NCBI GenBank assembly: GCA_037043015.1
Contig: CM073329.1
Span: forward strand, 554,448 to 618,447
Length of the DNA: 64,000 bases
Source: Bryum argenteum
Taxonomy: Eukaryota > Streptophyta > Bryopsida > Bryales > Bryaceae
Direction of reading: 5' to 3'
In this document: one piece after another, positions 4,161-32,518 of the stretch
How the letters are laid out: every line of letters starts with the position of its first letter
How positions within the stretch are numbered: the first letter of the stretch is position 1
Notes under the pieces: model-generated
What the model saw: only the letters and a program-made list of their open reading frames with translations
Database searches by the model: none
Told to the model about the DNA's origin: nothing
Translations under genes and position numbers: made by a program

Positions 4161-4641
4161 ATGGTGGAGAGGACATTGACATGCACAGCTTGCGGGGAAG
4201 AAAAAGAAAGTTTGGACGACCTGGATTTTCATGCGGAACTTGACGTTGTAATGTGTGCGATATGCGTGGCATTTATGGAGAATCGGATTGAGAGGAGCAA
4301 CGACGTTCAGGAGCATGTAAGGTGGTCAGGTTCGAGTTCGATTAATTGTGAGGTGCTTCTGATTGGGAATTGGTTCTGTGTAGGCAAAGGATGTCGATAC
4401 GTGCTATTGGTGTGGAAAGTCAGACGATCTCATTGCGTGCAGTTGCTGCGAATTATGTTGGTGCGCGACGTGCATCGTTCGTAATTATGGTGACGACCTA
4501 ATCGAAGAAGTGATAGCGGCCGGAGACATCTGCTGGACTTGTTTCGTATGCTTTCCTGAACATATGCATGGTTTGCTAGATGAGGCGGCATTTCAGAAGG
4601 GATATATTGCGCTTGAACAAATAGATATTAGTACGTCATGA
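4161..4641 (+). CDS. ADD/PHD-like double zinc-finger protein (137 aa, two exons)
   Basis: Exons are 4161-4316 and 4384-4641 with a GT-AG intron; the joined frame is open from ATG to TGA. Residues about 7-10 and 27-30 give two CxxC pairs (CTAC, CAIC), like the GATA-type finger of ADD domains. Exon 2 then gives a PHD-like series: CYWC, CSCC, a WCATC knuckle and CWTCFVC. ADD domains (ATRX/DNMT3 type) read the unmodified histone H3 tail; that activity is inference here. Two similar products lie in the right arm (36540-37123, 38530-38931). The protein is much shorter than ATRX or DNMT3 and has no catalytic part. It appears intact and sits in the left arm of the outer MULE. A cropped PHD/RING-type finger is the alternative reading. 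Confidence 0.65.
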
Positions 4642-4894: not shown

Positions 4895-7800
4895 CTAAAT
4901 TACTTCCAGCGCTGCCTCGTTTGACAATGCTAGAATGATACGATTTATGACATCGAGTGCATGCTTCTCAACTTCCTTGTGCAGTGCCTTTCTTGTAGAA
5001 ATAGAGAGTTTAGACCTTCTTCGCAGCAGTGGTAGTAGTGCGCTGTCACACGAAAAAGGTGAGTTTAATAACACTAAAACTGGATACATTTGGATTCTTT
5101 AGTCTCAAGCAATGTAGTATGAACTGCGGTATAAGATAAGAAAAAACACATAATACTGAATAGTAAACTCAAAAAAAACATGCTCAGGAGTCAGACTCCG
5201 AGGCGCTCAAGTCCAAGTAACGCTTCACCCCCGGATGATAACGAGGCTACCGCGGAACAATATCCGGGGAGGAGTGTGAGGAAACTATGGCGTAAGCCTC
5301 TGCTAAGCCTTCTGCGTACGAGGGAAGACTAAAAGATACTGGAGGACTGATTTGAAGCGAGGAGAGTCTATCAAAGACACTCTCACACTCACTAAACTGC
5401 ACAAAAAAGTACACAAGATGATTAGATTAATGAAAGAAGCACTTATCAAATTTCAAAAATCAATCACGCAGTTGAGTCGCACTCACAAAATCCATCGCGA
5501 TGTTCAGCCCGGATTGGAGAGTCGTCGCCATTGCCTGCGTTTGATGCAATCGGTGTGTTTGGTGGTGGTAGCGCTTCGACGGTGAGTGGTAATAGAACCT
5601 CAGTATAAATCTCGCGGTCCCCCTCCAGAGCAAGAATGTTGCGGTTGAGAGACCGCGCTGCCTGTACTGATGCGCCTGCGGTCAGATAAGAGTCAAAATT
5701 AGTTTCATTCAATAAATTCAATGACTAATTCCGAATAAGAAAGAACAAAATTTACATTAGAATTTGCAACCGATCACTAACCCGTCGAAGCCGCAAAGTC
5801 CCGTACTAAGCCACGCTCAGGACACATTCCATAAATCAGGGGCTTGAAGAAAAGCTCAGTGCGTTGTTTCGGACCCCGCCATGGCTTGCCATCCGACTTC
5901 CTCCGAAGAATACTCTGCTCGTCGATGGCGTTGAAGAGCATGTCTTGCTTGTTCAGGTCAAGGGCTGGTGTGAATGGATTGAGTTTGATGTCGAGCTGGA
6001 TAGGCTGACGACGACAAGTAGATGGCAGCGCCCGCACCATAACGACGGCTTTGGAGATAAAGGTCTGCACATCATATAAAATCAAAAGATATGATTTAGT
6101 ACTGACAAACCGAAAGCAATTAATAATAAAAAGTCAATCATCTCTTTAATACAAACTTCCAACAAGAATTCCTATTGCTCGCAAATATGCAATAGGGCTG
6201 GCAGTGCCAAATGAAGTGTCAAAGCCGGCATGAGAACGGAAGTCTTGGTGCTGCGACTGCTCATTGCCACAAACAGCGCTGAACTGGTCAGCCGAAGGTG
6301 GGACTCGAGACTTCTTAGGAGAGCCGGCACTTCCCCTTTCAACAATCAAGCTGAACCACGTGATGCCGGGTGACCACACCGCAGCGCACACCGCAGCCCA
6401 GACCGCAGCCCACACCGCAACCTACACCGCAGCCTACACCGCAGCTCACACCGCTGCCGACACCGCAGCCCACACCGCAGCCCGCACCGCAGCCCACGGC
6501 GCCTTCGACGACGACAATCATGCGCTCCTTGCGTAAGTATCGGAAAAACTTCTGGAGAACTGCCGTGGCTGCACGGGCGACAAGGGCTGCCGGGGCTTCA
6601 GGGCTGGCGGAGCTACACCAGTGACGGACTGAAGAGGCTTTCAAGGCTCGGCTGGGGTTTTATGAAGGACGGCCGACAGAGCTACTTCACCGCCGCCACT
6701 GGCAGAGGGACACAGCGCGGTGGAGTATCGGTCATCACGAATTGGAGGGGCTACAATCAGGCCTCTTGATAACATTCAAGGCACGGCCGGGGCATCAACG
6801 TCTAAAACGGCCTGTTGATATCGTTCGAGGCTATTGGGATTTTCATGCTGACATGGCTGCCGGGGCGTCAGCTAACGGGACTCATGCTGCCGAAGCTTCA
6901 ACTCGGACGAACTGAAGGGGTGGAGATCACCAACCGATTCACAGAGAGCAGTGCCGGGGCTTCAGTAGGCACTGCCGGCCAAGCCACAACAACGCCGACG
7001 CCGGCAGGGGGGCAGACCAAGGTGGTGCGTCGGGCAACAATAACGCTAACGGGCAGTTGGGTCTTCAGAGCTGCCGGGGCTGCCGGGGCTCCAAGGCTGC
7101 CTGTCCTCCAAGACCTGTCGGGGCTGGCGAGTCGAAGGGCTGGCGGTGCTGCACCCCCGATGGAATGGTGGAGCTTCAGCCTGCGGATTCTCCTCGGAAC
7201 ATTGCAAGGCTTCAGCGAGGATTATCGGTACTGCCATGCCAACAACGCCACCCGCAGAGGGTCGTAGTGCGGATGTTCATCCCAAACAATGCACGGGCTG
7301 CCGGATCGTAAAGGCTGCCGGAGTTTCGAGGTTGCTGAGGCTGCCGGGGCTTCAAGGCTGCAACGGCTGCCGGGACTGAATGCTGACGGGAGTAAACCTC
7401 CGTTGGACTGGAGGTGCATCGGGAAACCTATTCCCTGTCCAGGCACTGCCGGATCATCTAGAGGGACTACCGGCACTACAACGGCAACGCCGCCACCGGC
7501 ATTGGGCTGCAGCGAGGTGGATCTCAGTCACCACAAACGAGGGCTGGTTGCCGGGGCTTCAGGGCTGCCGGAGCTGGCGAAGGTTCAAAGAATTCCCGGC
7601 AAGTTCTAGAACGAGACCCAGCAAATTCCAATAGGAGCCCAGGTTCCACCAATTCTCTAATATTGTTTCAGTACAATGACTAACACATTCATCACAGAAA
7701 TAAAAAGCTAACTCAAAAAGCTAAGTCTGTGAAGAACTTACCGATCGTGCAGGGTTCAATGGGCTGCATAGAGGAAGCGAGTTGAGGATGTTCCACTCGA

Positions 7801-10800
7801 GCGCAATCTTGAGGTTGAAGTTCGATGTGAACGCCTCGATCTTCTTACGCACGGCATACGAATCCGGATAAAAGATTACAATCGCGCCGTCGTCATGCAG
7901 GTACCTGTAAGCAAATTCGGCAATTGTCTTCAAAAATGTTTCTTGATCAGAATTCCAACGGGGAATCTGGTGCTCGGGATCGGAGACCCCTGGAACACGT
8001 AGACCATCTGGGTACTCCGCTAGCATCAAATCTATGCCAGGCCGACCGACTTCGGGGACGCCTTCGAAGTACAAGCGGCGACCTACGGAAACCTGCCATT
8101 CAAAGGTATCAGTTTACAGCAAGACTTCATTTGAATACATGAAATGGAACTCAACAAGAAAGTAGTTGTTTACCTCTGAAAGGAAGCTCTTCGCAACCTT
8201 GAACTCCTCAGGAAAGGAGCCTGTCATCTTCTTCAGATCCCACCATCGCACTAACGTGTCGTTGATTATTTTGACACGAGCGCCAGTAGGCGCCCCGATT
8301 GGGTGAATATCAAGCATCATCCCACGAATTGCAGACGGAAGCATGGAACTTTCGGCTGCAATCATGGAATCGGTAGCGATTGAAGAAGACTTTCCCGAAA
8401 CATGACCGAGGCGGGCTTTCTTCTGTAGCGGACCACGTTCATTTTGAGCAGGACTGCTCTCAAAGTGGTCCTCAATGAACAGATCGGCGTCGATGGGAGG
8501 GTTGGCCCGTCTATCGAATTCGAGAGCACCTTCCTTCGGAATCAGTTGAGTATCGTTGTCAAGCTTCGCATCCAGAGGGGCGGCAGTAGGTGGGGACACC
8601 ACGGGAGGACGGGGTTTGCGCTTACGCCGACTCGTGGTGGCCTGACTGTCGTCAAGGTTTATGACTGCCTTCAACTTCATAAGCTCAGGCTCAAGCTTGG
8701 AAAGAAGGTCTTCTTCAAACTCAGGAAACATACCCTTCGGCATGTCCATGTACCAACCGCATGGTACATAGTGCTGCTTTTTGTACTCCTTCAGCTGCGC
8801 AGCAGTATACATACACTTCTCATCGCTCGTGTTCGTGTAGTTCACGAAGCTGGTTGGAGACTTTGAAATTGCCTTCACCGGGAGAAGAACATGCTTCACA
8901 TACCGGTAAAGCACTCTAGAGGATGCCTTCTCGAAATTCGGCTGCTTCTCGGGAGGGTTGTTCTTGTGAACGCCCTTCCCTCCCCCTTCCTTGTTCAGCT
9001 CCTTGTCTTTGATCGAGAATTCCCTGAAAAATGCGTTTTCCCATAACGCAATTCTCATCCTCTCGACATACTCGCTCACTGTGTCGACCGGCTCATCTAC
9101 ACCCGGTGGGTTGTAGTTTACCTCTTGCTTTCCCATGTCCATCTCGTCCTCGAAATCCTTTGCAACAGCAATGGATAACTGCGTAATTCCCATCACAAAG
9201 GATCGTTAGAAACAAATATGGCAGCAACATGAGACCAAAAAGAATTGCAAAATTGAAGGACTGGATACCTGAGACCACCACGTCGCCTTGTTCAGGAAAT
9301 TGAGGTATGTCTGCTCACTGAATCCAACCTTGGGAAACCGCTGATTCTCGCGGAACTTGGGAGGCTTGTTCCACCGTTCCAACCAAAGCAGCTTCGTGTC
9401 GATGTCCATCGCTGAGATCGCAAAATACCACAGTTTCTCTTGGGACATCTCAATCTCCCGGAACGTCTCGTAATGCTCCTTGATGAGTTCGAGGAACCTG
9501 GGAGTATTATCGGGGTGGCAAATCGGTAACTGCTTCCTCAACTCGCTCAACAGCGAAGTTTTCTTCTCCTGCACTCGTTTGTTGACTGCGTCGTGAATAC
9601 TTGCTGCTGTGTATTTGCCTGCCTGACAATCACGCCGAAAATCTGAGGCAGCCTTCGCTGCTTCTTGAGCGAACTCCGTCTGCAAAAACATTCCCATGTA
9701 AGTTGAGATTCAATAAAAATTTGGTGTCAATTAAGTAAGAGAATTGTACCTGATACAAGACGTTGCAAAGTGCACTGGCGGTTAGCTTAAACCAGGTGGA
9801 CTTCGTAAGGTTTTTGAGGTTGGATGCTGCTTCTTCCTCCGGTGTAATTATCCCTTTGAAGTAGGACACTTCTTGCCGCCCAATCCTCTGAACCCGGTAC
9901 AGCTTGTGCACAAGGTTCAACTGCACATGACTGTTCTCCACTCGCCTGCACATGGAACAAATTAGAACAAAATGTTGTTATTGAAAGTCACCTGAAACAT
10001 CCTGCTTCCAACACGAGGCCGAATACACACGCAAGATAAATAGCACGAACAAGTTGGAATTAGCACTTACCAGTTTATTTCATGGAGCGCCGTCAACGCC
10101 GTCATGTTGTCACCTTTGAGGTCTAGCAAGATGCAATCGACTCTGAAATGCCATGATGGATCATGGGATTTCTCTGCATTGATGTATGGGTACCAAGCCT
10201 CCAACCGGTGGTTTCCGTCCCAAACATGAAACATTTTCCCTGAAAACTTCTGAAGATCAGGATCGGCTTGCAAGAACTCTTCAAATTCGGCATTTACCTT
10301 CACCCAATTAGGGCTCCACGAGGCGACGATCTCAGCCGTCACGTCCACAGTGTTCACCTTGCCTGGCTCTTTGTTGTCGTTCTCGATCGCAACGTAAAAG
10401 ACTCCTTGACCTTCAACGTAGCCGACATCTCGAAAGTGATCCTGGAGCCTGGCTATGTCGGATTTCATTGCTGGCTTCACAACTGGCAGCCCCAACATTC
10501 GACAAAGCGGGATGCACATCCTTGATTTGTGAACGGGTTGGAAGCGCAACTGCTGAATTTTTGAGACACTTTTTGCAGCTTCCGAACTAACAAGGTTATT
10601 CACCTCCTTGTTCACATCGGCCTCCGATAGAATGTCAGCATCCGCTTGCTCTTCTTCCTCGATCTCGAGAGCAGGGAACTCGTCAGGTGGACATCCTTCA
10701 TTCGCAACGTCGGACGCCTTCGAGACGTTGCCCTCCGCCTCCTCAATGGCGTCATCACCACCTCCATCTGCAAAACAACACATACATTCAGGTTGGTACA

Positions 10801-13800
10801 CAATGAGGTTGTGTAATTGCAATACCCAACAGCCCCTTTGCCGGGACATCGCAATCAAGCTCCTCCGAGACGTGCAGCTGGTCTTCCGAAGAGGTGTGCC
10901 AGGATTCGTAGCTCTACGAGAAATTGGAATGACGTTGCCACGTGCGGGGTGTTGAGACTCTCATCGCTTGCATCTAGCAAGCACCACCTATTGCACTTGT
11001 GCCTTCATCCAGGCAACGGATCACAAAGTACATGTGAAGCTCTGTGCACATCTCGGCATGCTGACGACGGGCAAGATCACGATCTGCATCCCAACATCAC
11101 GACACAGTCAGTGCGGAGAATATTACCACTTATCATGGAATGGTTCATTACCAGATACTAACCCATTTTTGACTATTCTGGATGCAATGTGGAGCCTGTA
11201 CCGCCACTCAGGGCTCTCAATGCGCAAGCGTCCAGGTGCAAGACCTCGGCCGCCCCGCACTTTCCAAGCACAACGGTCACATCCTGATCTCATCAAGAAA
11301 TGGAAGCACGACCACGGTATCTATTCCGTACCTTGTAGCAGCTGAAATCTTGCTCAACGGGGGTGCTCGACAGTCTCGCCTTCTTGCAATAATGCAGCGA
11401 CAACGTCTAGCAGCTGCGAGCTTACGGCTTGGTACACCATGTACCCGTGAAGCCACTCGAAATCCGGATGCTGTCGAGGGACAATGCCGCCACTCAGGAA
11501 AACTCTAGCGCAAGCCTGTGCCTCTCTCGATGCCAGTGCCGCGACCCTATGCGACTCTCGATGCCAGTGCCGCGCCAAACGAAGCCTGTAATGCCACCAA
11601 GATAGCCCGTGCCGTTAGTTCACTGTCAATCTATTAAAAATGTAAGATGGGGATCCATTCCGGCTAATTTGATTACTAAACTGAAAATTGAGGTCATCCT
11701 TGCCGGAACATGTACAAACATGATCCTATCAACAAGAGATCTGTGCTGTCTGGGCACACGACGTTACATGATTAAGCTTGCGAGTTTGTAAGATTGCGAG
11801 CCAGTTTGATCACTGAGGTCAAAATCCAACATATTTGCTGGAGCAAGTATGAACTTCAAAGGTTCGAAAATAATGAATCTTGTGTTTACTTGTCACTTCC
11901 ACGTAATGGATTTGGAAGCGGGACAATTCCCTATGTGAAAAGCTTAAGAGAAATGCGAGAAGGTATCAGAGCCATAGAATGAGAATTAAAAACGAAGTAA
12001 ATTACCTTCCGACAGATCTGGACCTGCGTTTTCAATGAACCCAGTAGCTGCTGGCACATTGATGGAGGATGTCGGTCACATTGGCAGGGATCGCTGACAC
12101 GACCTATGCGCATCCACCCACGAAGCCGGTGCCGCGACGGAGCTGGTTCAGCAAGGACGTCAGTGCCTTGACCAACAAAGCAGGTGTCATTGTGGAGGAT
12201 GCTCGTAACGCGACAAACGACCAATGAGTAGTCCACATTAGAACCTGTACCGCCACGGGCGACTCCTGAGCACCCACCTTAGAAGCAGGTGCCGCGACGA
12301 AGTCCATTCCAACAACAACGACATTGCCTCGACAAACGAAGCATGTGACGATGCTATGGAAGCCCGTGCCGCCACGATCAACATCTGTGCAGCCTCTAAC
12401 GAAGCCTGTGCCGCGACGAACACGTCTCCAGCAAGGACGCGGCTGCGTGGACCTATGAAGCCATTAATGCCCGTATCGCTACACACGACGTATTAGTAGC
12501 CAGCCACGAAGCCTCTGCCGCCACTTACGAGTTATGAACAGCCACCCTTGATGCTAGTGCCGGCATGAGGCCTTTTGCAGCATGGACGCCAGTGGCGCGA
12601 CCACTGAAGCAAATGACGTTGAGCAGGAAGCCCGTGCCGCCACACCCGACCCTTGTGCAGCCACCCACGGAACCTCTGCCGCCACGGACGACGCCTGAGC
12701 ATCAACCCACGGAGCCTGCGCCGCGACGAATTTATTGAAGGATCGAGGACACTGCCGCCACTTTCGAAGCCACTGCCGCCACCGTATGAGCCACTGCCGC
12801 TACCATTGAAGTCAATGCGTGCATCTTCGATTCCCATGGTGGTACTCTTTCAGTAAAATTTGTGGCAAGTCGTCGTTGGAAGAGTCCCTCCGGAGCAAAA
12901 TGAGTGACTTTCGGAGCCAAGGGGGTGTCCGTCGGGGCTGGTAATGTGAATGCCGGGGCTGAGGTGGGTCTGCCGGGGCTGAGGTGGGTCTGCCGCTGCC
13001 GGCACTCCACGAGGGGTACCAGATTTGGCATGCTAGCGAACGCGGTCGAGGGCATGTGCCGCCACTCATAACCCTCCCGGCCAGCAACTTCCGAACACAA
13101 TAATATTATGATTTAACCGATGCACGACCCCAGGTAGCTCAACCGTACCTTGGAGCCCTCGCAGATATGCTGTCTTCGGCCTGTGCCGCCACTCCAGACT
13201 CAAGCGCCAGTGTCTCCGAGTAAGCGTGTCGGCAACCTCCACCCAGAAGTTCACAGCGGCTTGCACACATCCTCCTCTCATCCCCTGAGTGCCGCCACTT
13301 GAGTCGAAACACTCCATGTACTACTGAAGCCCCGTAAAAATTGAGTGTAGCTCGTGGATGCTATCAGATGCCTGTGCCGCCACTCCATCAATCCTCGTGG
13401 TGCTCGACATCTTCGCCATCTTGCCGTGATCAACTGACAACGTCAAGGAGCTTTGAGCTCAGCTCTGAGCCTGTGCCGCGACCTTAGGCTTCGTACACCA
13501 TCATCCCATTTACCCGAATGCTCATATGGGCTAGCCTGTGCAGGCTGTGTAGAATCTCTGGCGCCACTCAAGACTCTTGCGCGAGTGTCCACGACTAAGC
13601 GTCTGTAGTCCCCCGCTCACACTTTTCACAGCGCCTTCGACAAATCTTGTCTCATCATCATGCAGCTACGAGCCCATGCCGCCACTTTCGCCGTCATGCT
13701 CCATCTACCCTCGAAGCCCCGTGCAAATTTAGCGTATCTAGTGTCTGCTGTCGAATGTCTGTGCCGCGACTCTCATCTTTCCACGAGCGAACCTTGGAGC

Positions 13801-16519
13801 TCTCGAAGTCATGCTGGGCAGGGGTGCTACACAGCATCGCCTTCCTGCCATCGCGAGAATCTAAGCATAGTCCAGTTAGAACGTTTAGGAGCATTGAGCA
13901 TAGCTTGGAACCTACGCCGCGACCCAAGGATTTGGACACCATGTATCCGAGTACCCAAATGCACATATCACATACCCCTGCATGGTGTGTAGGGCCTGTG
14001 CCGCCACTAAGTACTAAAGCGCCAGTGTCTCCGAGTAAGCGTCTCGGCAATCACCGCCTTCAATATCACAGCGGCTTGCTCACATCCTCCTCTCATACTC
14101 TTGCAGCTGCGAGCCCGTGCCGCCACTTACGTAGTAATACTCCATGTACCCTTGAACCCCGTGAGAATTGAGCGTAGCTTGTGGATGCTGTCGAATGCCT
14201 GTGCCGCCACTCCCATCTATTTTCGTGCACGTCAAAGCATTAGGTACTTGTTCAGAAAGTCCAAAGATATCTGCGACTTCAATCCACGCACCAGATCATT
14301 CCCATGAAATCGGTGCTGCATTCTCGTGACACATCCACATCCCTTCTCTCCGCAAGCTCTCAGCCCACACCCAACCATGAAACACCCATCACTCCCTTAC
14401 CAACTATTGAAATTCCACATACGCATCCTACTGTCATCAAACAAATGTGAACATTCACGGGTAGGTGATACGTACCCTCGAGCTCTGGATGCTGGTGACG
14501 CCTATAGTCACAGGCTCGTATGTCACCCCACCCCACAGTGGTCGCAGGCTCGAATGTAACCCCATCCCACACAGGTCGTAGGAAGCCGTTCGTGATAGAA
14601 TGCTGACCTCGCAGTGTCCCGATAACCGCAAGTGGACTTGACTGGCGTACTGTCCCGAGTCCGGCTATCTCTCTAGTTCCGGCATATTACCCGCCCTTCT
14701 AAATTTACAACAGAATAAATGAAATGATAGAGTTCAATGCTCTTACCAGGAGTAGTTTCTGGCGTGTCATGAATACAAATGACTCCAGCTGGGACAGGTG
14801 AACTTGGTCCAGGTGAGGCCATTTCTTCGGCGTCCTCTCCCGAAAGATCTGGCGATCCATCATATGCATTCTTCGACGTGGCATGGTCCATATCGACTGG
14901 CGACCCTTGCGTCATGGCTTGACCTGCAGAGAAGTCAACGGTACTTTCTAAGTCGCCCATAAACATGAAAATACGGTCACTAAACTTCTTGCTCGCCTTG
15001 AACCTGCAAAGCCACGAGGATAAAACTTATCAGAGTAAAATCTTAGAGGCCAAGCTCGGTATAAATACCAGGTCTGAAATCAAGGCTGCAATTTAATCAT
15101 CTGCCAAAGAATCCTGCAACCTAGGGTTTGTCTAGAACGGTGACTCGTTCGCTCAGACCTATGTGGCAGTGACTGGCGGATGTGCCGCAACGGCTATGAG
15201 TACGAGATGAAGCAGCACTTGCCGTCAAGCTGTTTTCTCAAACAGCAATCGCCGTGTCTCCAACTGCACCGTCGAGACGACTTAGGTGCCTCCAGATTCC
15301 GGCGGGGCGAGTAGCCGACCAAGGCGAGGAGATGCCGTCTCCGCCGGCGAGATGAAATACGTTGCTGCGAGCTACAGCAGGTGCCGGCGAGGAGATTATC
15401 TCACCAATCCTACTAAACTCGAACTGCGCCGTCAGGATGATGAGTAGGGCCTGTGCCGCCACTCCGGAGCCTCTTCGATGAGATAATGATGCTGGGGGGT
15501 AGAGGAGTTCCGCTACCGAAGCTCTGACAAGAGCACTCCGGCGCTGGCCCCATGAAGCAATTGCCGCCTCCGCGACGGCCGCCACCTCGATGAAGCAGGT
15601 GCCTCGCTGAAGCAGGTGCCTCGTCGTAGCCGCGTCGATAGAGCACTATCGCACTATCACCAGATTCAGGAGCCCCGAAACCCTAAACCCCACAGCGTAC
15701 TTCGAAACGGTGATAAAATCGAGGTTGTGAGAAAAGTAGTTGCTAGAATCCTTTGTGCAAAGGGCAGCCCAAGGTACGATTGGCCTCGAGCAACGTTCAC
15801 TGCCGGAAGGCTGCCGCGAGAATTTCGCGCTCCCTAATGTGCCGCCGGTATGGAGAGGACGATTGCGCTGCTTTTCCCTCGTGCGATGTCCCTGAAGAAG
15901 AGCCGCTGTGATCATTAACATGGAAGATCGCAATCGAATCAACGGGTACAACTCGACATGAAGCTCCATGTTCCGTGCCGAGTGATTTTGTTGTCCATCG
16001 TAATCACGTATATCGAATAGGACATTTACCAAGAGCAATAATCCTCAACTAACAATTTATCGCGAAATTGTTCCTGTCTATGTTAGTTTAGAATACTGCT
16101 TACCTTCATCATCGTCCTTGCTGCTGCTCGTTTCATCTTTGTGATTCTCCATGTTGAGACTCTTTTCAACCTCACCCTCACTATCCTGCATATGTATTAT
16201 CAAATTAGCATACCTTTTCAAACATTAAATCTCAGATATTAGAGAATATGAGCAGTCATGCCTGATTCTTGCGCCTGGTGTACGTAGTTCAAGCGCGCCC
16301 CATCTCTGAATCCGAGCCCAAGTTCTCTAAAATCGGAAGTAAAGCTTTCGTTGTATCGCCTATATCGACTGTGTTGCCCCGACTATCTTTGTTCTTCATC
16401 TGCCTCGCACTGGATCGCTTTTTAGAGAAATACAAGCGACCCCCAGGTACTCTTTTTTTCCGCTTCTTACTTCTAGCACTCTTGCTACTTTGATCATACT
16501 CAGCTGTATTTCGCGGCAT
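4895..16519 (-). CDS. ParB-like / beta-class DNA methyltransferase-like nuclear protein of the outer MULE (about 12 exons)
   Basis: Exons read by eye: 16519-about 16281, 16185-16104, 15003-14747, 10767-10071, 9945-9750, 9679-9269, 9178-8174, 8093-7742, about 6348-6170, 6064-5782, 5675-5487, 5042-4895, roughly 1,300 residues. The first exon is Lys/Arg-rich (SKKRKKR, nuclear signal). Exons 2-4 start acidic. Exon 4 carries a ParB/Srx-type motif (VWDGNHRLEAW). Exon 8 has a Rossmann-like IDLMLAEYPDG and DGAIVIF. The last exons give GLVRDFAAST joined to GASVQAA and LALEGD, a methyltransferase motif I with acidic loop. Motif IV before motif I is the beta order of N6/N4 DNA methyltransferases, but DPPY is replaced by EYPD, so catalysis is doubtful. 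ParB-methyltransferase fusions are known from phages; capture from such a source is inference. A homologue lies in the inner MULE. The exon 1 donor and exon 9 borders are unsure. Confidence 0.7.
6376..6501 (+). repeat. 12-bp tandem repeat (ACCGCAGCCCAC)n in an intron
   Basis: About ten units of ACCGCAGCCCAC with single-base variants, directly beside the proposed exon at 6170-6348 of the ParB-MTase-like gene. Confidence 0.85.
6540..7600 (+). repeat. Dispersed GCTGCCGGGGCTTCA minisatellite in an intron
   Basis: Many copies of CTGCCGGGGCTTCA(AGG) or close variants recur at irregular 20-100 bp spacing (clear around 6585, 6950, 7065-7090, 7335-7375, 7550). They fill the intron between the exons ending at 7742 and beginning near 6348. 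The ORFs in this stretch are repeat-driven. Confidence 0.75.
10768..14746. repeat. 4-kb intron filled with GCCTGTGCCGCCAC-type dispersed repeats
   Basis: The motif (G)TGCCGC(C/G)AC recurs more than twenty times between about 11190 and 14215, at irregular 15-300 bp spacing, often as GCCTGTGCCGCCACTC or GTGCCGCGACGAA. One more copy is at 15440. A 20-bp unit GCCGGGGCTGAGGTGGGTCT is doubled near 12952-12991. No coding exon was found here; the ORFs are broken and repeat-derived. It lies between exons 3 and 4 of the ParB-MTase-like gene. Confidence 0.65.
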
Positions 16520-16522
16520 CAC

Positions 16523-17015
16523 TAAGACATACCTCCTGATGTGTAAAGCCCGGCAGATGCTCGGTTTCTTAACTCTAGGAGGTGTCCTATATGTCTACTG
16601 ACACTACGTGGACAGAAACCTTTAATTCTATGCACGTTTCCTTAAAAAAACGGCGCTGTTTTCTAATTAGTTAAGAAGCGTCCTTGTAACAAACCGCCGT
16701 CTCTCTTACTTAACTCTCATTAACCCCTAATCGTCAGTGCATGCCCCTGGGGCTTGGTATCCACTGTATTTTCAGAGGGGCTTGTCATTTAAGGGTGAAC
16801 ACTTCAAAGTAGCCGTCTTCGTTCGAAAGGCCTCAATATTTTATTCTCTGCATACCGGGCCATCAATGGCTGAAGAGGACATGAAACCGCCCATGGGATT
16901 TATTGAGCCATAGTATCCCACATCCTCTATTTTTTCCGTAGATCCTTTAATAATTTTTCCGGCCCATGCTTATTTCTGTGATCTGTCAGTTTACTAGAAT
17001 GACGTCCATTGAGTA
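16523..17015. other. Left half of the outer MULE's divergent promoter region
   Basis: No ORF supported. It lies upstream of the minus-strand start at 16519. The other half is 32541-32712, upstream of the outer transposase; the inner MULE separates them. Confidence 0.55.
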
Positions 17016-17026
17016 CGCTTCCAAGG
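17016..17026 (+). repeat. Left target-site duplication of the inner MULE
   Basis: CGCTTCCAAGG recurs in the same orientation at 32530-32540. The gaps to the terminal repeats are 12 bp on the left and 11 bp on the right. Confidence 0.65.
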
Positions 17027-17038
17027 GGAGAATGTAGA

Positions 17039-17073
17039 GGTGTGAGCGGTGAGCGTAGAGCGGTGAGCGGTGA
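17039..17073 (+). repeat. Left 35-bp TIR of inner MULE
   Basis: GGTGTGAGCGGTGAGCGTAG and 15 further bases are the exact reverse complement of 32484-32518. It contains four GAGCG(G) units. Confidence 0.9.
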
Positions 17074-17302
17074 GGTCCAAGATGGCATGGGTGGACTTGA
17101 ACATTTTAAAAAATTTCTGTTAAAGATATGGACCCTATGACCATTGATTTAAGCGTTTTCAAAATTTGTAAAGATTAATTTTGTCCAATTGAGTACCCCA
17201 AATCCGTGGATTTAGATCCTATTTCCATGTGAATGTGATCGTCGCCCCACTTTATAGATCATTAAGGAGGGAATTCTGGCCCCGTATTGTACTGTCGTAT
17301 AG

Positions 17303-17322
17303 AAATTAGGGCTGACGTCATC
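17303..17322 (+). promoter_or_regulatory. Subterminal TGACGTCA block, inner MULE
   Basis: Identical to 2898-2917 of the outer MULE. The surrounding CCGTGG-type motif (17204) also has counterparts in the other arms. Confidence 0.6.
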
Positions 17323-17756
17323 GTTCCCAAATAATATGAAATTGGGGGTCACCCATGTCTCTCAATATGATTTAATATTTTTTACACACTTTTATTTGAA
17401 TTGCGGTTTTTAGATTATATTTTATTTACTGACATTTAATTTGGAGCAGTGATTTGTAATTTTGTACATTAGAATTAGGGCTGAGGTCATCATTTCCATT
17501 ACACTGTATTTTCTTTCGTGAACCAGTTAATGTATGTTTAGATATCAACGATAATCACGATAGGTAATAATTCAATACCGAATTCAAAAACATATAAATG
17601 AATAGTATATTAGGGCAATCACAAATACATGGCGCTACAAAGTCTAGCACCTATCGGAAAACAAAGCACATACTACGCTGAAGGTGTAGTACCATTGAAG
17701 TCGCAGTCACACTCATCACCTCGAAGTCTATATACTTCAAAGACACTACTACGATA

Positions 17757-20700
17757 ACGTTGACGCAGAGCGTCGACAAGAAAGGGGATGGAGCTTCAAC
17801 AAACTCTTGTGCAAGACGCTCAAAGCGTAGGAAGGTAGGGTGAACGTTGACGGAGGGCTATTGTAGAGAGGAGCGTTGCGAGTCAAGCGCTCTTTCAGAC
17901 CTGCGATGCTAAAATCACATAGAAAGTCAGTACAATATATTTGTAAGAGCAGAATACGGATATTGAGAAAAAAATAGACTACGTTACTACGCACCAATAA
18001 ACTTCCGTGGCTTCTTCACGGGCGGTTCGTCAGAGTCATAATCTGCAGGTGGGGCCGATTCTCCACTTTCTTCATCACCGGGAGGACCATTCTTGTAATC
18101 CGCCAGTACACCATCAAAGATTTCTTCGTCGGGTTCCATTGCGATGAGGTGTCGGTTTGAGCGCGCGCAAGCAATTACAGATGCACCTAATAAATCAAAA
18201 GCCACATTAGAAATGCGAAATGTATAAACAGTTTCTAAAAATGCGTTTACGGATACGTTACTGCATTTTTGCGCTCCGGTCGAAGACTATACCCCGTCGT
18301 CCGTGAGACAATTTAAACATTGAATGAAGGACGGGTCCTTCTTCTCGTGAAGCCTCGCCACGGCGTATCGTCCAACGAAGTACGCAATGTGTCTTTGTGT
18401 CGCAAAGTTCGAGAGGTGCTTCTTCCTCATCCGGAATGATTGCCACACCCGCATATGCGTGCGCCACTTGCCGAGTTTGGAACTTCGACACATAATCTTT
18501 ACGAACATAAACTTTTTGATATGGAAGCGGTGAGTCTAAGAAAACACAAGATAGACATATTAATATAGAAGCATAGAGGGACATTAAACATAAACTTTGA
18601 GAATGAAAAACAACAAACCGCTCCGTCACTCTTTTGGGTGCAGATGCAGTAGAGCCATTGGGAGTGGATTATATCCCCACCAATCTCGAACAACACGAAA
18701 ACCATATGTATGGGATTCGAGTCGAGAAAGACGCTCGATTCTACGACATTTGGGATGCATCGGAAGAATCGCTCCAACGTCTGTCAGTGGTATGCGGCAA
18801 AGATAAAAAGGCTCTCAAAGTAGTTTTTATCGCGCGGGTTCGAAGGAAACTGTTGGAGACACACCCGTCTTGCAAGTTAAGGAGCGTCGCAAAAATGAGA
18901 TCAATCCTGGGACGCTTGGGATCATACTCCATCGCCGAACACGGGTACTTTCGGTCTTTTCCAATCAAATACAAGGCAATAATTAGATAGTGGCATATAT
19001 ATTGAGAAGTACAAAACGTAAATATGAAGATTATAAATGACCAATGTATGAAATAATACCTTCGATGTCTTCGATGATATCGAGGATTTGCGAATCCCAT
19101 TTTGCGATCTTGACGATTGATGAACCAAATCTCCAATGTTGCCCTTCTCAAATCATAGGTAGAGTATTTGTAATTTTTTGAGGATTGCTACCAATGTGAT
19201 TGGGTTTCGGAAGAGGCGTTTGGCGAATTTTGGCCGCCCGAGACGGCGAGGCGACCGCGGCGAGTTGTGGTCAGTGATAAAGGACACGGGGAGGATCCCG
19301 CATTCGTAAGTCTACTCCTCCGGGAAAGCACGAGTCGATCGTCACCGCGTCGACGACATTGGATCGCGTCGTACCATGTGAAGTTTGAGTAAGATCGGGT
19401 TCTCGGGACCTTCCGGTTGGAGAGGAGCAATGTCTCCAGAATGTTGTTGAACATCTTCTACAGGGGTCCGCACCAGCGTTGCGTCGCTTCTTCTTTCTCG
19501 AGCTTTAGGCGGTGCGGTAGGAGACGGTGGTGGAGAGCCCGAGGCAGTGCGGTTGGCGGAGAATCGAGAGGTCGTCGTCGTCGTCATCATCGATTTACGT
19601 GGGTCATCGTCGGCTCCAAGTGAACCGAGGTTTGAACAAGCTCTTTCTCCTCCTTGTCGCGCACGAAGTTCGCGCGACATTTCAAGCGAACCAACCCTGT
19701 CTGCTCGCAATGCGTTAGTGAATTCGCTCTGTTGTGATTCGGAGAAGAAAGCTCGAAGGATCGTTGGTGATCGCAACGTCTTCTAACTCAAAGGAATAGA
19801 CCATGAAGCTAGAGCCTCGCAGCAATGTCTCTTCTGGCAATCTCTACAATCGGAAGAAAGAAATTAGAACATTGGAATTGCATGTGTGAAACAGAAATTG
19901 ATAGAAGAGAGTAGGTAGCGGATGGCATACCGGAATAACAATCGTTTGATGGTGACTTTGCCACCCCCAATCTTATAAATATTTGTGCCTTTGATGAATT
20001 TTGGTGGCAGAGATTTGGAAGCGAGTAGTTGCAAATGCCTTCTCCCAGTATAACAACCTCCACTTCTCGATATATGCGGATGGTTTGAGGACGGCGTCCG
20101 ACCACTGAATGGTGAGATTCTCTTTCTCAACAAGCTTCTCTAATTCACTTTCAAGGGATTTCTCCAACTGCACATACAGAGAAAACGTTGAGAAATGTAT
20201 TACTTAGACGGCATTAGTTAGGAAACCACACAAGTAGAGACTAAATTACCTGTGCCCATAGAGAAGCGCGATGAAGAAATGTAATCAAACTTTTATCCTT
20301 CATGGGGCGGTCCTCCGGGAAGTGAACTGATCGACGAACATCGTTTGGTGAGTTCCACCATTGCAACCACTTCGCCTTGAAATCAAAGTGAACATTGGTA
20401 GTTCTTACGTATGCAGTCATCAATGTCATATCCGGTTTGAGGTTTTTGCTGTAGTGTGCATAAATCTGCACACAATAAAGATTGGAATATTGAATTTAGT
20501 AATGTTCGCAAATTTGCAGATTCTGTAGTCCTCTGGACTTATGAGATCTTTAAAATCATGCAACTTCAGCTTACCAAATTTCCTTATGCGTTGAAGTTTT
20601 AAAGAAAGCGTCGCCTTCAACGTGGCCATATTCGATGAGACTTACATAGCCGAATCAGACATTAGTAACGTTGTAGAAAGAAAAAACATATAACAAATTG

Positions 20701-21541
20701 AAAATAAAGAAGATATGATATCTCTTACCAATTAATGCTATTCATAAGCGTCGAAAGAAATCGCTTTCGAAGATCAAGGATGATGCGATCGATCAAATAC
20801 GCCACGCAAGACGTTTCGTTGCATTTTCGACGCGTCGAGATCCACGCTCGTGAATATCGATGGTTACCTTCATATACGTAGAAATTTTTGCCGAGATAAG
20901 ATGATGGAGATCAGGATCCAGCGCAACGTCTTCACAAACTCGTCATTCGCTTCTCTCCAAAGCAGATCAAAACACATCATCTCCTAAGATCAACAGTGTT
21001 TTTTTCTCCTTTCCTATCGGAAGCGTAAACGATACGACCCGTCGCGCTCGCGATAGCTTTGTTTAACTCATTCTCCAATTTTTCGACGCCTTGTTCGAGA
21101 GACGGTCGAACCTGTGATAACAAACAAAGCGACACAATGGAATAAAGTCGCGAGACTTTCTCGAGCGAGTTTCAGATCGCAACGCGTTGATGATGGCGAT
21201 TGAATCGCTCTTGTGAATCATTCGTGATCTCATTTCAGACTCGGCCCTGGATCTTTGTCTTGGAGATGAGGGGGCATGTGGACAATCCCGACGTTGACAC
21301 TTCCCGGCAATGCTGGTTCCTCATCATCGGATAGACAATCATCTCCATCATCAGAATGTAATATTGGAGGTTGATGAGCGGCTTCCAACGGACTTTCATG
21401 ATGTACCGCAATACTTGGGCCTTCTAGTCGTTGTTGAAGTGGAACGATCTCGTCATCACCAATGATGTTATCATTTTGATCGGTTAGAGGAGGTTGAGCA
21501 TCCTCATCAACTTCGACTGGAGAGGCAGGTGATAATCTCAT
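17757..21541 (-). pseudogene. Decayed ParB-like / methyltransferase-like gene of the inner MULE
   Basis: The exon order parallels the outer copy. An acidic exon (21541-21237) is followed by a ParB-type exon (about 21112-20745) with YEGNHRYSRAW and INW at its splice end, as in the outer gene. Next are exons with SPEDY (about 20632-20478) and LHRASLWAQV (about 20463-20270), an exon at about 20172-19930, a long linker exon (about 19776-19342) and a motif I exon (about 18204-17998) with GASVIACAR and AMEPDEEIF. The last exon ends at about 17757. The ParB exon has adjacent stop codons and a frameshift before YEGNHR, and the region 18200-19150 is read only across frame changes. It is homologous to the outer gene at low identity. 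The motif IV site cannot be read confidently. Confidence 0.6.
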
Positions 21542-21679
21542 CTGTCAAAAAGAAAAGCAAGTACAACAACGCAACTAGATAATAAGAATATGTCGAGTTT
21601 AAAACAAAAGCTGAATCCAATCATGAAATTGATATTTGATGAAGTTAACAACAAAGTATCATATAAAGTGAACAGAAAT

Positions 21680-22045
21680 CTAATCGGACTTGGACTTTGC
21701 AGCAAGTCGAGGTGATCGTCGTGGAGCAACTCTGGCTAATGCCTTTGCTTCTAGACGACGTGCTTTTGCTTGTGCGTAATAGTATCGCATGTAACTTCCT
21801 CGTGCAACCCGATCAACGCCATCACTTGAAGTGTGACGGACAGGAGAAGCAGCAGAGAAGATTTCTGCATCCGCCGGCAAGGCCAAAACTAAACGACGAG
21901 ACTGCACTACTTTCTGAACACGGGCTCTAATTTCTGATAAGTCGCTATCCGCGTCAGATTCTTTGTCCTCCACAACGGAATCTCTCTTAATAGGATCCTG
22001 CATTCCCACAAATAAAAATTCAGAAACACAGATATGAACTTCCAT
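21680..22045 (-). pseudogene. Isolated methyltransferase motif I-like exon with basic tail
   Basis: The exon follows an acceptor (TGCAG near 21999) and ends with a stop at 21680. A 23-residue stretch (ARVQK...LALPADAEIF) aligns without gaps to ASVQA...LALEGDREIY of the outer gene, then gives way to a basic end (SPRLAAKSKSD). It lies upstream of the acidic exon at 21541. It may be the tail of a third, broken copy of the ParB-MTase-like gene, or a chance match in a nuclear basic exon. Confidence 0.35.
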
Positions 22046-22099
22046 ATTGAATTCACCAAAAACACCGACGCATTACAAGAGTAAATGATAGATATTAGG

Positions 22100-24535
22100 G
22101 AGTACCACAAGGAGGCCACGACACCGCCATCCTCAGCATTTCGAACAATTCACCGAGGTTCACTCCCAACGAGCATCAGGGACCCTCAGAGAAACAGTAA
22201 CGAAGAGATCATGAAAAAAAAAATTTAAAAAAATTGGACGCTCCGAGGTCAGCCTTGCGTCCACGCAAGGCTGGCCCTCCCCGGAGCAATCCATCACATC
22301 TCGTCCACAACGGACCTCCCATTCACCACGACGAGCCCACGAACACAACAGGTCTCCCAGATTGACCAGCGGGGAGCACGACGAGGAGGCCACGACACCG
22401 CCATCCTCAGCAATCAATCCAGCAGGGAGCACGACGAGGAGGCCACGACACCGCCATCCTCAGCATTCACAACCATCCACAGAGGTTCACACCCAACGAG
22501 CACCAGGGTCCCCTCAGCGAAGCAACATGAAAGAGATCTTAAAAAAAAATATTACACAACAATGGGACGCTCCGAGGTCAACCTTGCGTCCACGCAAGGC
22601 TGGCCGTCCCCGGAGCAATCCATCACATCTCGTCCACAACGGACCTCCCATTCACCACGACGAGCCCACGAACACACAATAGGTCTCCCAGATTGAACCA
22701 GCGAGGAGCACGAGGAGGAGGCTACGACACCGCCATCCTCCCGATTTGAACCAGCAGGGACCACGACGAGGAGGCCACGACACCGCCATCCTCAGCATTC
22801 ACAACCATCCACCGAGGTTCACACCCAACGAGCACCAGGGTCCCCTCAGCGAAGCAACAGGAAAGAGATCATGAAAATAATTTAGAACCAAAATGAGACG
22901 CTCCGAGGTCAGCCTTGCGTCCACGCAAGGCTAGCCCTCCCCGGAGCAATCCAACACATCTCGTCCACACAGACCTCCCATTCACCATGACGAGCCCACG
23001 AACACAACAGGTCTCCCAGATTGACCAGCGGGGAGCACGACAAGGAGGCCACGACACCGCCATCCTCAGGAATCAATCCAGCAGGGACCACGACGAGGAG
23101 GCCACGACACCGCCATCCTCAGCATTCACAACCATCCACCGAGGTTCACACCCAACGAGCACCAGGGTCCCCTCAGCGAAGCAACAGGGAAGAGATCATT
23201 AAAAAAGAATTTAAACAACAATGGGACGCTCCGAGGTCAGTCTTGCGTCCACGCAAGGCTGGCCCTCCCCGGAGCAATCCAACACATCTCGTCCACAACG
23301 GACCTGCCATTCACCACGCCGAGCCCACGAACACACAACAGGTCTCCCAAATTGAACCAGCAAGGAGCACGAGGAGGAGGCTACGACACCGCCATCCTCC
23401 CGATTTGAACCAGCAGGGAGCACCACAAGGAGGCCACGACACCCCATCGTCAGCATTCACATCATCCACCGAGGTTCACACCCAACGAGCACCAGGGTCC
23501 CCTCAGCGAAGCAACAGGAAAGAGATCATGAAAATAATTTAGAACCAAAATGAGACGCTCCGAGGTCAGCCTTGCGTCCACGCAAGGCTGGCCCTCCCCG
23601 GAGCAATCCATCACATCTCGTCCACAACGGACCTCCCATTCACCACGACGAGCCCACGAACACAACAGGTCTCCCAGATTGACCAGCGGGGAGCACGACG
23701 AGGAGGCCACGACACCGCCATCCTCAGCAATCAATCCAGCAGGGAGCACGACGAGGAGGCCACGACACCGCCATCCTCAGCATTCACAACCATCCACCGA
23801 GGTTCACACCCAACGAGCACCAGGGTCCTCTCAGCGAAGCAACAGGAACGAGATCATAAAAAATAAAAAAATTAAACAACAATGGGACGCTCCGAGGTCA
23901 GCCTTGCGTCCACGCAAGGCTGGCCGTCCCCGGAGCAGTCCATCACATCTCGTCCACACCGGACCTGCCATTCACCTTGACGAGCCCACGAACACACAAC
24001 ACGTCTCCTAGGAGCACGAGGAGGAGGCTACGACACCGCCATCCTTCCGATTTGAACCAGCAGGGAGCACCACAAGGAGGCCAGGACACCGCCATCCTCA
24101 GTATTCACAACCATGCACCGAGGTTCACACCCAATGAGCACCAGGGTCCCCTCAGCGAAGCAACAGGAAAGAGATCATGAAAAAAATTTAGAACCAAAAT
24201 GAGACGCTCCGAAGTCAGCCTTGCGTCCACGCAAGGCTGACCCTCCCCGGAGCAATCCAACACATCTCGTCCACACAGACCTCCCATTCACCATGACGAG
24301 CCCACGAACACAACAAGTCTCCCAGATTGACCAGCAGGGAGCACGACGAGGAGGCCACGACACCGCCATCCTCAGCAATCAATCTAGCAGGGACCACGAC
24401 GAGGAGGTCACGACACCCATCCTCAGCATTCAGAACCATCCACCGAGGTTTACACCCAACGAGCACCAGGGTCCCCTCAGAGAAGCAACAGGGAAGAGAT
24501 CATGAAAAAAAATTTAAACAACAATTGGACGCATT
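22100..24535 (+). repeat. Array of about 330-bp tandem repeats with an internal hairpin
   Basis: A unit marked by GACGCTCCGAGGTCA recurs at 22237, 22566, 22897, 23225, 23554, 23886 and 24203 (spacing 317-332), with a broken eighth at 24524. Each unit holds the inverted repeat CCTTGCGTCCACGCAAGG and internal doublets of GAGGAGGCCACGACACCGCC. Long open frames on both strands follow the repeat and vary with indels, so I do not call them genes. Confidence 0.9.
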
Positions 24536-25135
24536 CTTAGCATTCAGAACCATTCACCGAAGTCACACCCAACGAGCACCAGAGACCCCTCACAGAAACA
24601 GCAGGAAAGAGTTCATGATACAAATTTAAAGGTCCATGACATTTCCTTTCACAACGGACCTCCCGTTGACCACGAGGAGGCGACAGTACCAGCAAGGGTC
24701 TCACTTTGAACCATCACTGAGCATCACGAGGAGGCCACGATCCTCCACAGAATCGACAGGGGTCTCACACCGAACAACTAGGGAGCAACACGAGACGTCG
24801 ACATTCAAAATCAGCTTACTCTGCAATCACAACCATTCAGCAGGATTGACTCGGAACGAGGACCTCCGAGGTCTCACTTAAACAGCCGGAAGCACAACGA
24901 GGAAGCCCCAAAACAAGTAGGAATCTCACACTGAACTTGCTGGGAGCAAAACCAGGAGGCCACGAGTCGGAATTTCTGAGCAAGATGAGCCATTCACCAC
25001 AAGGATGCCATGAAAATTCAAATCACTCCGCCCAGGTGGACATCGACCAGCAGCTATGATCAACGATGGACCTTTACAGGGCACCTCATTTTGACAACGA
25101 ACTACGTACATTTAAGATTAAGGAGAGCAAAACAC

Positions 25136-25329
25136 ACCTTCACTTTGCTCGACTGCCAGCTCTCCAGCTCTGCACGAGATTTCAGCGGATCTCCAAGAGC
25201 ATAACGACGACGTTTATAAAATTCATCCCAAACGGCCGACTCTGAATCAGTACTCACATTCTGCAGATCTGTTTGAATGTTCTCTCCACCGCTTTGCACT
25301 CCCTCCTCCTCCTCGATTCCGTTCGCCAT
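25136..25329 (-). CDS. Possible first exon of an unrecognised gene
   Basis: The ATG at 25327-25329 opens a frame starting MANGIEEEE, with WDEFYKRRR in the middle and a donor (AAG/GTGTG) near 25136. Composition is acidic then basic. It sits between the 330-bp array and the GC-rich block at 25560-25790, and no second exon is found on the far side of the array. It could be a gene fragment captured by the inner MULE. Not recognised. Confidence 0.3.
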
Positions 25330-25559
25330 TTCTCCTTCCTCTGAAATCGCTACTCCGCCCTACATTCCGCGCTTGTATTCGATGAAGTACACAAACACTT
25401 TCTCTCACTGATTCCACTACAAGACAAACATTTAAACTCTCCATTCTATTTTCTACCGGCATCTTCTTTTGTCAGAGCTACATCAAACTATAATCCAAGA
25501 ATTCGATGCCGAGCAGGGATCTGAAGCTATGGCAGGCGCTACGATTTCGGCAGGGAACT

Positions 25560-25790
25560 GTTAGGGTTTCGGCACTCCAGGAGGCGTTCAGAGGATTCCC
25601 GATCCTACTTTTCCTCGGCGCGCCGGCGATGCCAGCCTTAGCCTTAAGCAGCTGGCGAGCCTGCCTCAGCCCCGGCCAGCCCGCGTCCAGTCCAAGGCTC
25701 GGCCAGGCGGCGTCATCGGCCAGCCCGCGTCATCCGCCAGGCCACGTCATCCGCCAGCCCGCGTCATCGGATAAGGTTTAAAGCCCCGCC
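25560..25790 (+). repeat. GC-rich short repeat block (CCAGCCCGCGTCATC)
   Basis: About four near-copies of GCCAGCCCGCGTCATC(C/G)G occur in 25674-25768, within a strongly GC-rich island in the inner MULE. No gene is supported across it. 25800-26389 is AT-rich with nothing recognised. Confidence 0.65.
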
Positions 25791-26389
25791 CGCGCCAAGC
25801 TATCTTCCTGATCCCCCCCTGCGAAGCTGTTTACCGGCCATCTCCCAAGTGAAGCTGCCTTACAGGTATGAATTTTTTCGTTTTGTTATATTTGTTTTCC
25901 TTTTGTTTTTCCGTATGCACACACACCTGAATAATTACAGGATATAAATGGTAAAAAATTGTTGAGAAAAAATCTAAAACATATACAACCTTAAGGAAAA
26001 ATGAATTACGATTTTTTATTTTAGTTGTTTCAAAGGACCAATGGTTGCCACATAGGCAAGAGAAGGGTGAAAACTAGTTGCAATTTTTTTCCAGAAAATT
26101 TTCATCAAACTACTGATTGCCACGTAATTTATGAAATGGGGGAAAATCAAGTTAAAGGTTTGTGAAACTTAATCAACAATTCGTACCCGCAAGTGGTTTT
26201 AATTGTTGCAAGTGGGAAATTATTGCCAGTTAAGGTGGTTAAAGAAGGCACCCGAGGCCATTGCATTGCATCGGTACATTGCATAGAATTACGACAGAAC
26301 GTAGCCTCTAAACTAAGGATGTGAAGGCTAAGATAGGCCCAGTTTCATTCATGACACTTAGAAAAAAGGACATATCAGTTACCTCCTCC

Positions 26390-27041
26390 TCTAAAACTTG
26401 ATCACTGTTGTCCTTCTCGGAAGCAGTGAGATCCTTCAATGGATCTACTCGGTCTTCATCAGGACTATCTTTACCATCTTCTTCATCATCGCCGACGCTT
26501 ACGTTTTCATCACCATCATCTTTGTACGTCCTACTTGCATAGTCCTATGTTTTCAAAAGAATATGTCAATTAGCACAAAGTACACAATTTGCGACGTTTA
26601 AGCTTTGAGATATCAACAAACCTGTCTTTCAGAATCGACCGGAACACCATCATCACCAATGTAATAACTCAGTGACTCGCTCGATATTGAGGTCCGCCTC
26701 CCACGCTCTAGCTCATCGACTATACTCTTCCACTCTGTCAGTCCTTGAGATTTCTCCGTCTGCGCGATCTCCACAACCGTGTCAAGATTGATAGACCGCA
26801 TCTTCACACTCCGCCTAAACTGTGGCCCAACCTCCTCATCGTCCCCGTCGATATCTGCAAGACCACGCTCGTCTTCACTAGACCGAGACACTCCACCCTT
26901 ACGCAAGGCGCTCCGCTTCAGCGCCTTTGTATTACTAAACCTTGTCCCACCCCTCCTTTTCTTCCTCTTAGGCATACTCTCATTCGATCTCTCAGATCCG
27001 TGGCTCACAGCATCCATGACCTCAAGTCCTCGTAGGATCAC
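26390..27041 (-). CDS. N-terminal exons of the inner MULE's minus-strand gene
   Basis: Exon 1 runs 27041 (first ATG; a second in-frame ATG at 26976) to about 26624, with donor CAG/GTTTG. Exon 2 is about 26547-26390, ending before GTAACTG. Exon 1 has a Lys/Arg-rich nuclear-type start (PKRKKRRGG) and exon 2 is strongly acidic. This basic-then-acidic layout parallels exons 1-3 of the outer ParB-MTase-like gene (16519-14747), so these are probably the 5' exons of the inner homologue, now far from the ParB part (21112) because of the repeat array. Whether they still splice together is unknown. Confidence 0.45.
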
Positions 27042-27543
27042 ACCCCAAAATCACCAAAAACACAACAGACAATGAAAGGGTCGATATAGTCGTCCTCCCT
27101 CTATTTAAACACTTTACACTACCATGCGACGGACCTAGTACCTTAATTTCATCATTAATTATAGCAACTGCAATGACGGCTCCCAGAGCGCCATATATGA
27201 CAGTATCTGACAAAGGATACTAATCAGAATTTTAAATAAGCATCCAGCAACTCTGACAAAGACGGCCGCCGTCACTTTTCCCAAATTAAAGACTGCACAA
27301 TTTAATGTTCCTGTTTAATCTTGCCCATTCACTGACATGATCAAATTTTATGAAATAAACCAATTAGGTAATTTAATACAATTCACTTACTACTCAATTA
27401 TTACTTACTAACGCTACCGTCAAATTCTACCAAATGGGGACCCGTGGTAGCCTCTTCTTGCTATTATAAATACCTCTAATCATATGGTTCAGGGTTCTCT
27501 CACCTTCACACAACACATCTCCTCTGGCTTATGATCAAGCACG
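27042..27543. promoter_or_regulatory. Divergent promoter region of the inner MULE
   Basis: 500 bp between the two head-to-head starts. TATAAATAC at 27465-27473 lies 70-80 bp before the transposase ATG. In the other direction TTTAAATAG (complement of 27101-27110) lies about 60 bp before the minus-strand ATG at 27041. Both are plausible TATA elements. Confidence 0.6.
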
Positions 27544-32483: not shown

Positions 32484-32518
32484 TCACCGCTCACCGCTCT
32501 ACGCTCACCGCTCACACC
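32484..32518 (-). repeat. Right 35-bp TIR of inner MULE
   Basis: Exact inverse of 17039-17073. Confidence 0.9.

Follow-up and report, generated by a model that had tools for sequence, protein, structure and literature searches.

Giant MULE-type transposons in the moss Bryum argenteum do carry a conserved accessory gene, one with many exons that joins a predicted ParB/Srx domain to a methyltransferase-like domain. We regard it as a standing component of a giant transposon family because it recurs many times, lies mostly in divergent orientation where a transposase partner was listed, and is under strong purifying selection; given the genome-wide recurrence of the pair, it is probably part of the element's working. 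Its sequence, predicted fold and analogy to a known system suggest that it may be an element-encoded self-recognition or anti-silencing factor, a reading for which we hold belief and doubt to be evenly balanced.

Two nested elements and their divergent genes

The window, i.e. the whole stretch of 64,000 nt analysed here (G000:C9:554448-618447, in an assembly of 258.8 Mb and 25 contigs), contains two elements, the only ones that were followed to both ends. The outer element (2610-40769) is flanked by an exact 10-bp target duplication, CTTCCCACAG (2600-2609 and 40770-40779), and the inner element (17027-32529) by an exact 11-bp one, CGCTTCCAAGG (17016-17026 and 32530-32540). The inner element interrupts the outer one, its landing site lying between the divergent genes of the latter (the probable start of gene A at 16519 and the outer transposase at 32713). 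Both have GAGC-repeat inverted ends; their terminal inverted repeats span only ~50-65 nt, where MULEs have long ones. The left repeat of the outer element (2626-2697, plus strand) pairs over 64 nt with the right one (40689-40752, minus strand), positions 2634-2697 being 78% identical to the complement of the latter; sequence comparison places the left repeat of the inner element at 17027-17073 (plus strand) and its right arm at 32484-32529. The GAGC-type end repeat was found 281 times forward and 281 times in reverse across the genome (≤ 3 mismatches; reversed control, 0), so that the GAGC-type ends named in the preliminary description do recur; end-to-end tracing concerns the two window elements.

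We class both as giant inverted-repeat transposons of the MULE type. This membership rests on the target duplications, which measure ~9-11 bp in MULEs and here are exact, at 11 bp for the inner element and 10 bp for the outer one. The earlier designation as MULEs was supported on this count but not by the Pfam MULE profile PF10551, which gave no match at E ≤ 1 to six window transposase pieces and one open relative; there are 52 other PF10551 matches in the genome. The SWIM zinc-finger profile (PF04434), expected after the DDE domain of a MULE transposase, scored E 0.71 on the open relative, below the cut-off.

Each window element has a transposase and, head to head with it, a many-exon ParB-methyltransferase-like gene. 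That of the outer element, gene A, lies on the minus strand and has an uninterrupted frame of 1131 residues across spliced exons whose splice sites were predicted from the sequence and from homologous copies. It starts near 16519 and its exons extend over ~11 kb, with one 4-kb intron. Its product runs from a basic and acidic start through the ParB/Srx domain, the middle part and a low-complexity linker to the methyltransferase-like domain. Sequence reading gives a probable first exon with the basic start, ahead of the open frame (16304-16519, donor site provisional), an acidic exon (16104-16185) and a further 5' exon (14747-14923). The exon at 10071-10767 carries an acidic stretch and, by sequence and predicted fold, the ParB/Srx domain (DGNHR ... 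HEINW, the latter at the splice border); it is followed by an exon at 9750-9945 and by two exons of the middle part, one ending in WWSQ (9269-9679) and one running into the low-complexity linker (8174-9178). The methyltransferase-like domain is spread over exons at 7742-8092 (motif IV, IDLMLAEYPDGLRVPG), 5782-6064 (KPWRGPKQR ... DFAASTG) and 5487-5675 (motif I, ASVQAARSLNRN, with GASVQAA divided after the G), the stop codon being in the next exon. The 1.7-kb intron between two of these methyltransferase exons contains a 12-bp tandem repeat, CCACACCGCAGC, in 10.3 copies (6374-6497).

Gene B of the inner element (minus strand, approximately 17700-27017) is a decayed homologue of gene A. It retains EGNHR..SINW in its ParB remnant (20728-21194), ..LWAQ (20250) and the motif I remnant GASVIACARSNRHLIAM (18187-18137), so every motif of the many-exon minus-strand gene previously reported in both elements (DGNHR or EGNHR, INW border, WWSQ or LWAQ, motif I) was found. 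Gene B itself is decayed, its ParB exon lying in three frames with stops. The ParB exon is open in a relative of gene B on another contig (C3:10280001-10294000; L074, L075), a locus that another element, with a transposase of its own, appears to interrupt. The transposases, both on the plus strand, differ in the other direction: that of the inner element (27571-32053) is nearly open, with two stops, and that of the outer element (32713-36286) is frame-broken, in several frames and with 12 stops in the aligned pieces. From the reading frames of genes A and B and of both transposases, the outer element thus combines an open partner gene with a broken transposase, and the inner element is nearly the opposite.

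Recurrence, pairing and selection

The gene A ParB exon had 151 listed genome matches, 150 of them at E ≤ 4.1e-38 and many without an internal stop (best 150 of 1069 candidates scored), and a query from a second subfamily gave 150 matches (best 150 of 1121 candidates scored); three transposase queries gave at least 150 each among the matches listed. Within 25 kb, 58 of the 150 gene A-type exons used for counting (from 151 rows) had a listed transposase, comprising 53 divergent, 4 same-strand and 1 convergent pairs, against random means of 6.9 pairs and 1.7 divergent pairs (500 placements). When lists were merged (268 ParB exons from two subfamily queries and 269 transposases from two queries, among the matches listed), 109 ParB exons were paired within 25 kb and 97 of these pairs were divergent, where 300 random placements gave 19.1 and 4.7 respectively. 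Both sets of placements used guessed lengths for contigs C7 and C8. The recurrence beside transposases anticipated for a profile search was therefore observed in this genome. The other 159 of the 268 ParB exons had no transposase partner among the matches listed; since the partner lists hold about the best 150, these rows are not readable as solitary genes. One subfamily was represented by 25 ParB rows picked by identity from the second ParB query and 24 transposase rows from the third transposase query. Of its 25 ParB exons, 19 lay no more than 30 kb from a transposase of the subfamily, each in divergent orientation, leaving 6 ParB rows and 5 transposases. By eye, the largest contig (C1, 44.1 Mb) is home to many of the listed interrupted ParB, transposase and ADD-like copies.

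Median dN/dS, taken by identity class, was ~0.04-0.11 across the exons compared, with dS saturated for the more distant classes: 0.05-0.10 for the ParB exon (23 of 34 copies without stops), 0.06-0.11 for the middle exon (41 of 45 copies) and 0.04-0.11 for the methyltransferase exon (31 of 32 copies). The window gene entered these comparisons twice, from the window and from its fetched locus, and identical pairs were skipped. Purifying selection and divergent pairing disfavour chance capture, and the long association with the transposase proposed in the preliminary description is upheld by the 97 divergent pairs among 109 and by these ratios.

The ParB/Srx and methyltransferase-like domains

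The predicted fold of the ParB exon is that of the ParB/Srx superfamily, as the preliminary description had foreseen. An AlphaFold2 model built on an alignment of the window exon with 23 metagenome relatives reached a pLDDT of 87.3 and a pTM of 0.80; a single-sequence fold (pLDDT 39) was dropped in favour of this 24-sequence alignment, in which GNHR is invariant (24/24). In a Foldseek search of the PDB (best 50 of 127 matches), the top 28 rows all belong to the Srx/ParB superfamily, namely sulfiredoxin, ParB, Noc, PadC, SbnI and free serine kinase (the last two presumably sharing the ParB/Srx fold), with probabilities up to 1.00, E-values of 0.014 to 0.14 and TM scores of 0.25-0.59; no match to the model reached E ≤ 0.001. 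In bacterial ParB this fold holds a nucleotide and acts as a clamp on specific DNA sites. Assignment to ParB from sequence alone is weak: the Pfam ParB profile did not match this domain of the partner gene, and the ParB-like profile phrog_1033 matched 3 of 24 members (best E 0.0098) and 1 of 7 in another set (E 0.0045). None of 21 pattern matches to ParB relatives in viral contigs was confirmed. With gene A from residue 140 as the query, 5.8 billion proteins yielded 6438 candidates but no match at E ≤ 0.001; the probable reason is the length rule, by which single-exon predictions are excluded. A protein search with a shorter joined profile found 30 relatives, 23 of which were used for the fold alignment.

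The N6_N4_Mtase profile matched 5 of 6 members of the methyltransferase part (best E 4.8e-6; member 1 scored 23.3 bits against a cut-off of 26.7) and phrog_3008 matched all 6 (best E 3.5e-7). This part also matches the beta-class amino-methyltransferases DpnA (E 7.9e-5) and CcrM (E 4.4e-4), with which it shares the order motif IV then motif I. It differs from them in motif IV, canonically (D/N/S)PP(Y/F/W) in the beta class. The 32 own-genome sites caught by pattern read EYPDG (16), DYPDG (13), DIPEN, DYPDA and DYPVG (1 each), i.e. 31 of 32 are EYPDG-like and none is DPPY, and the 7 metagenome relatives caught by pattern all have (D/E)YPDG. The methyltransferase part claimed earlier has support from sequence, and since motif IV is non-canonical, 'methyltransferase-like' is the furthest label that can be given.

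A comparable motif occurs in a phage and metagenome clade of N6_N4_Mtase proteins reached via the viral-contig scan (L076-L080, P0002-P0113; 125 homologues, 120 of them listed). Among the 120, motif IV is DPPD in 82, DIPD in 19, DVPD in 1, DPPF in 6 and DPPY in 2, with 10 uncaught, and its last residue is acidic in 102 (the tally covered 121 sequences, with the window exon assumed to be among 11 uncaught ones). A DxP-permitting pattern had served to find the seed loci of this clade but not the 120 homologues. The moss elements and the clade are alike in the acidic, non-aromatic last residue of motif IV; being common in the clade, this residue has the look of a conserved variant and not of decay. 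The clade members differ in being single-domain proteins of ~230-270 aa, and by eye no ParB gene lies beside two of them among neighbouring ORFs of at least 110 aa. The clade did not stand out as the nearest relative: in profile-profile comparison the methyltransferase part scored 94.6% with it and 88.3% with a canonical set, without separation and with alignment confined to the motif I region.

Arrays, companion genes and possible function

The large intron of gene A (10768-14746) holds 20 of the 21 same-strand copies (plus strand, ≤ 2 mismatches) of a motif, GCCTGTGCCGCCAC, that form an array at 11194-15462; the window as a whole has 22 such matches, 21 plus and 1 minus, where 0.24 are expected. 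Across 259 Mb there are 32 exact copies of the 15-mer GCCTGTGCCGCCACT (reversed control, 0), and 31 of these sites lie within 10 kb of a listed gene A-family ParB exon, on its 5' side and opposite strand, in 8 elements; the remaining copy is at C10:3124822. These 31 sites are common by descent among near-identical copies. The inner element has a 327-bp tandem array of 7.4 copies between the gene B exon remnants (22097-24532, tandem-repeat reading) and a motif, GAGGAGGCCACG, with 24 forward and 1 reverse copies. Elsewhere, 117-bp units lie 5' of the ParB exon of L071, and one-direction 12-mers reach 27:1 and 27:0 in L074/L075 and 15:0 in L069/L070; in an element on contig C4 the commonest motif is two-directional (12:12) and others are 16:1 and 15:1. 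A control stretch of the window (46000-64000) has a 12:0 motif too, and tandem copying alone could produce one-direction arrays. Conservation of the motif copies did not clearly exceed that of the intron (P 0.002, 0.14 and 0.058 against random 13-mers; 0.05, 0.20 and 0.36 against GC-rich 13-mers). A first, positive-looking test, with copies chosen by their match to the window, was set aside for this fairer three-way test, which was weak.

Putative ADD-like zinc proteins accompany some elements. The outer element has ADD-like Cys-rich exons at its left end (4125-4638, plus strand; matching the right-hand ADD-like exon in tblastn at E 7e-5) and two such stretches at 36543-39064 (minus strand), the label being based on cysteine-pattern reading and on a match of one of two ORFs to ADD_ATRX (PF17981) at E 0.025, below the cut-off. 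In the genome, 78 of the 149 ADD-like rows used (of 150) have a listed transposase at most 15 kb away and 61 of them are convergent downstream, many at ~2.4 kb, against 7.7 in 200 random placements. No ADD-like gene was found downstream of the transposase in the ~6 kb searched of the C4 element or the 3 kb searched of an element on contig C6.

If the partner is a self-recognition or anti-silencing factor, its ParB/Srx domain would settle on the array that the element itself carries 5' of the ParB exon, on the GAGC end repeats or on both; its altered methyltransferase domain would bind or modify the array or end DNA, and heterochromatin would be engaged by the ADD-like proteins that some elements have. 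Host silencing would thereby be countered, much as VANC does for VANDAL elements in Arabidopsis, and the element would stay expressed and mobile. We counted against such a role the ParB exons with no listed transposase, the C4 and C6 elements where ADD-like genes were not found, the common descent of the GCCTGTGCCGCCACT sites and the Foldseek E-values, the best of which was 0.014. It is unlikely that these parts amount to a transposon address system, in which the ParB/Srx clamp would read the family array, the methyltransferase with altered motif IV would set a non-canonical mark and the ADD partners would read heterochromatin, so keeping the family's epigenetic identity.

Selection on the methyltransferase domain, its match to DpnA and CcrM and the acidic motif IV residue of the 102 phage and metagenome homologues would also suit an active DNA amino-methyltransferase that marks its own element DNA (N6-adenine or N4-cytosine) under ParB targeting, and the authors of PMC12477816 propose that a comparable protein modifies its own element. 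Against it, all 32 own-genome sites and the 7 metagenome relatives caught lack the aromatic residue with which motif IV canonically ends, and we consider this activity rather unlikely. A transposition helper with no silencing role, bridging the ends or targeting, could explain the divergent pairing with the transposase and would have possible sites in the GAGC end repeats, but internal arrays and ADD-like companions are unexpected for a mere end-binder, which makes it quite unlikely. In rice, Pack-MULEs commonly capture genes (PMC13317346), and the partner might by analogy be captured cargo, functionless for the element and spread by hitch-hiking; a dN/dS of ~0.04-0.11 and one divergent arrangement across many copies render this very improbable.

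The self-recognition reading can be set beside second genes of other MULEs. We know of no ParB or methyltransferase domain in VANC. The second gene of maize MuDR is mudrB, whose protein and arrangement differ from those of the ParB-methyltransferase partner. According to PMC6446971, the function of its product is not known, although integration apparently requires it. The likeness is that of a helper gene beside a transposase. VANC resembles the partner as the second gene of a MULE with family-differing one-direction arrays in introns and non-coding parts: according to the available part of PMC5735166, VANC21 binds one-orientation motif arrays in non-coding DNA, some of it within vanB and vanC introns. 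Binding and hypomethylation are demonstrated for VANC (PMC5735166, same part), whereas the moss genes are known from sequence.

The closest published case is Sola1-1_Ec32 of Ectocarpus, a 21.5-kb element reported in 2025, in which a single 1104-aa protein, encoded on the strand opposite to the transposase, combines a ParB-like domain with a DNA methyltransferase domain of predicted N4C or N6A type (PMC12477816). Compared by description only, the two accessories share the ParB and methyltransferase parts and the opposite strand, but Sola1-1_Ec32 belongs to the Sola1 superfamily and to a brown alga, and the available portion of the account makes no mention of arrays, ADD-like companions or a change in motif IV. 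The kind of accessory is thus already known from Sola1 (PMC12477816), the only source for a ParB-methyltransferase transposon gene in our partial literature survey. The statement that the gene is not a described MULE component holds to this extent: the survey found no account of such a protein in MULE-type elements, of its altered motif IV, of ADD-like companions or of family-specific arrays. If the self-recognition reading is true, the moss elements would be a second VANC-like transposon system, built of prokaryotic-type parts and present as a large family, and if the Sola1 and other algal proteins are homologous, unlike transposon superfamilies would have taken up one accessory. The one-direction arrays open the way to a direct binding test, and the altered motif IV points to a type of methyltransferase that has yet to be studied and that has a phage counterpart.

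To the right of the outer element, the window contains a Copia polyprotein (41331-44564 and 59956-61170), which we take to be of plant type, apparently split by ~15 kb of other sequence, suggesting a further nested insertion. A Pre-SET exon (50178-50708, minus strand; PF05033, E 1.2e-12) lies within the splitting stretch, and its carrier may be another giant element.
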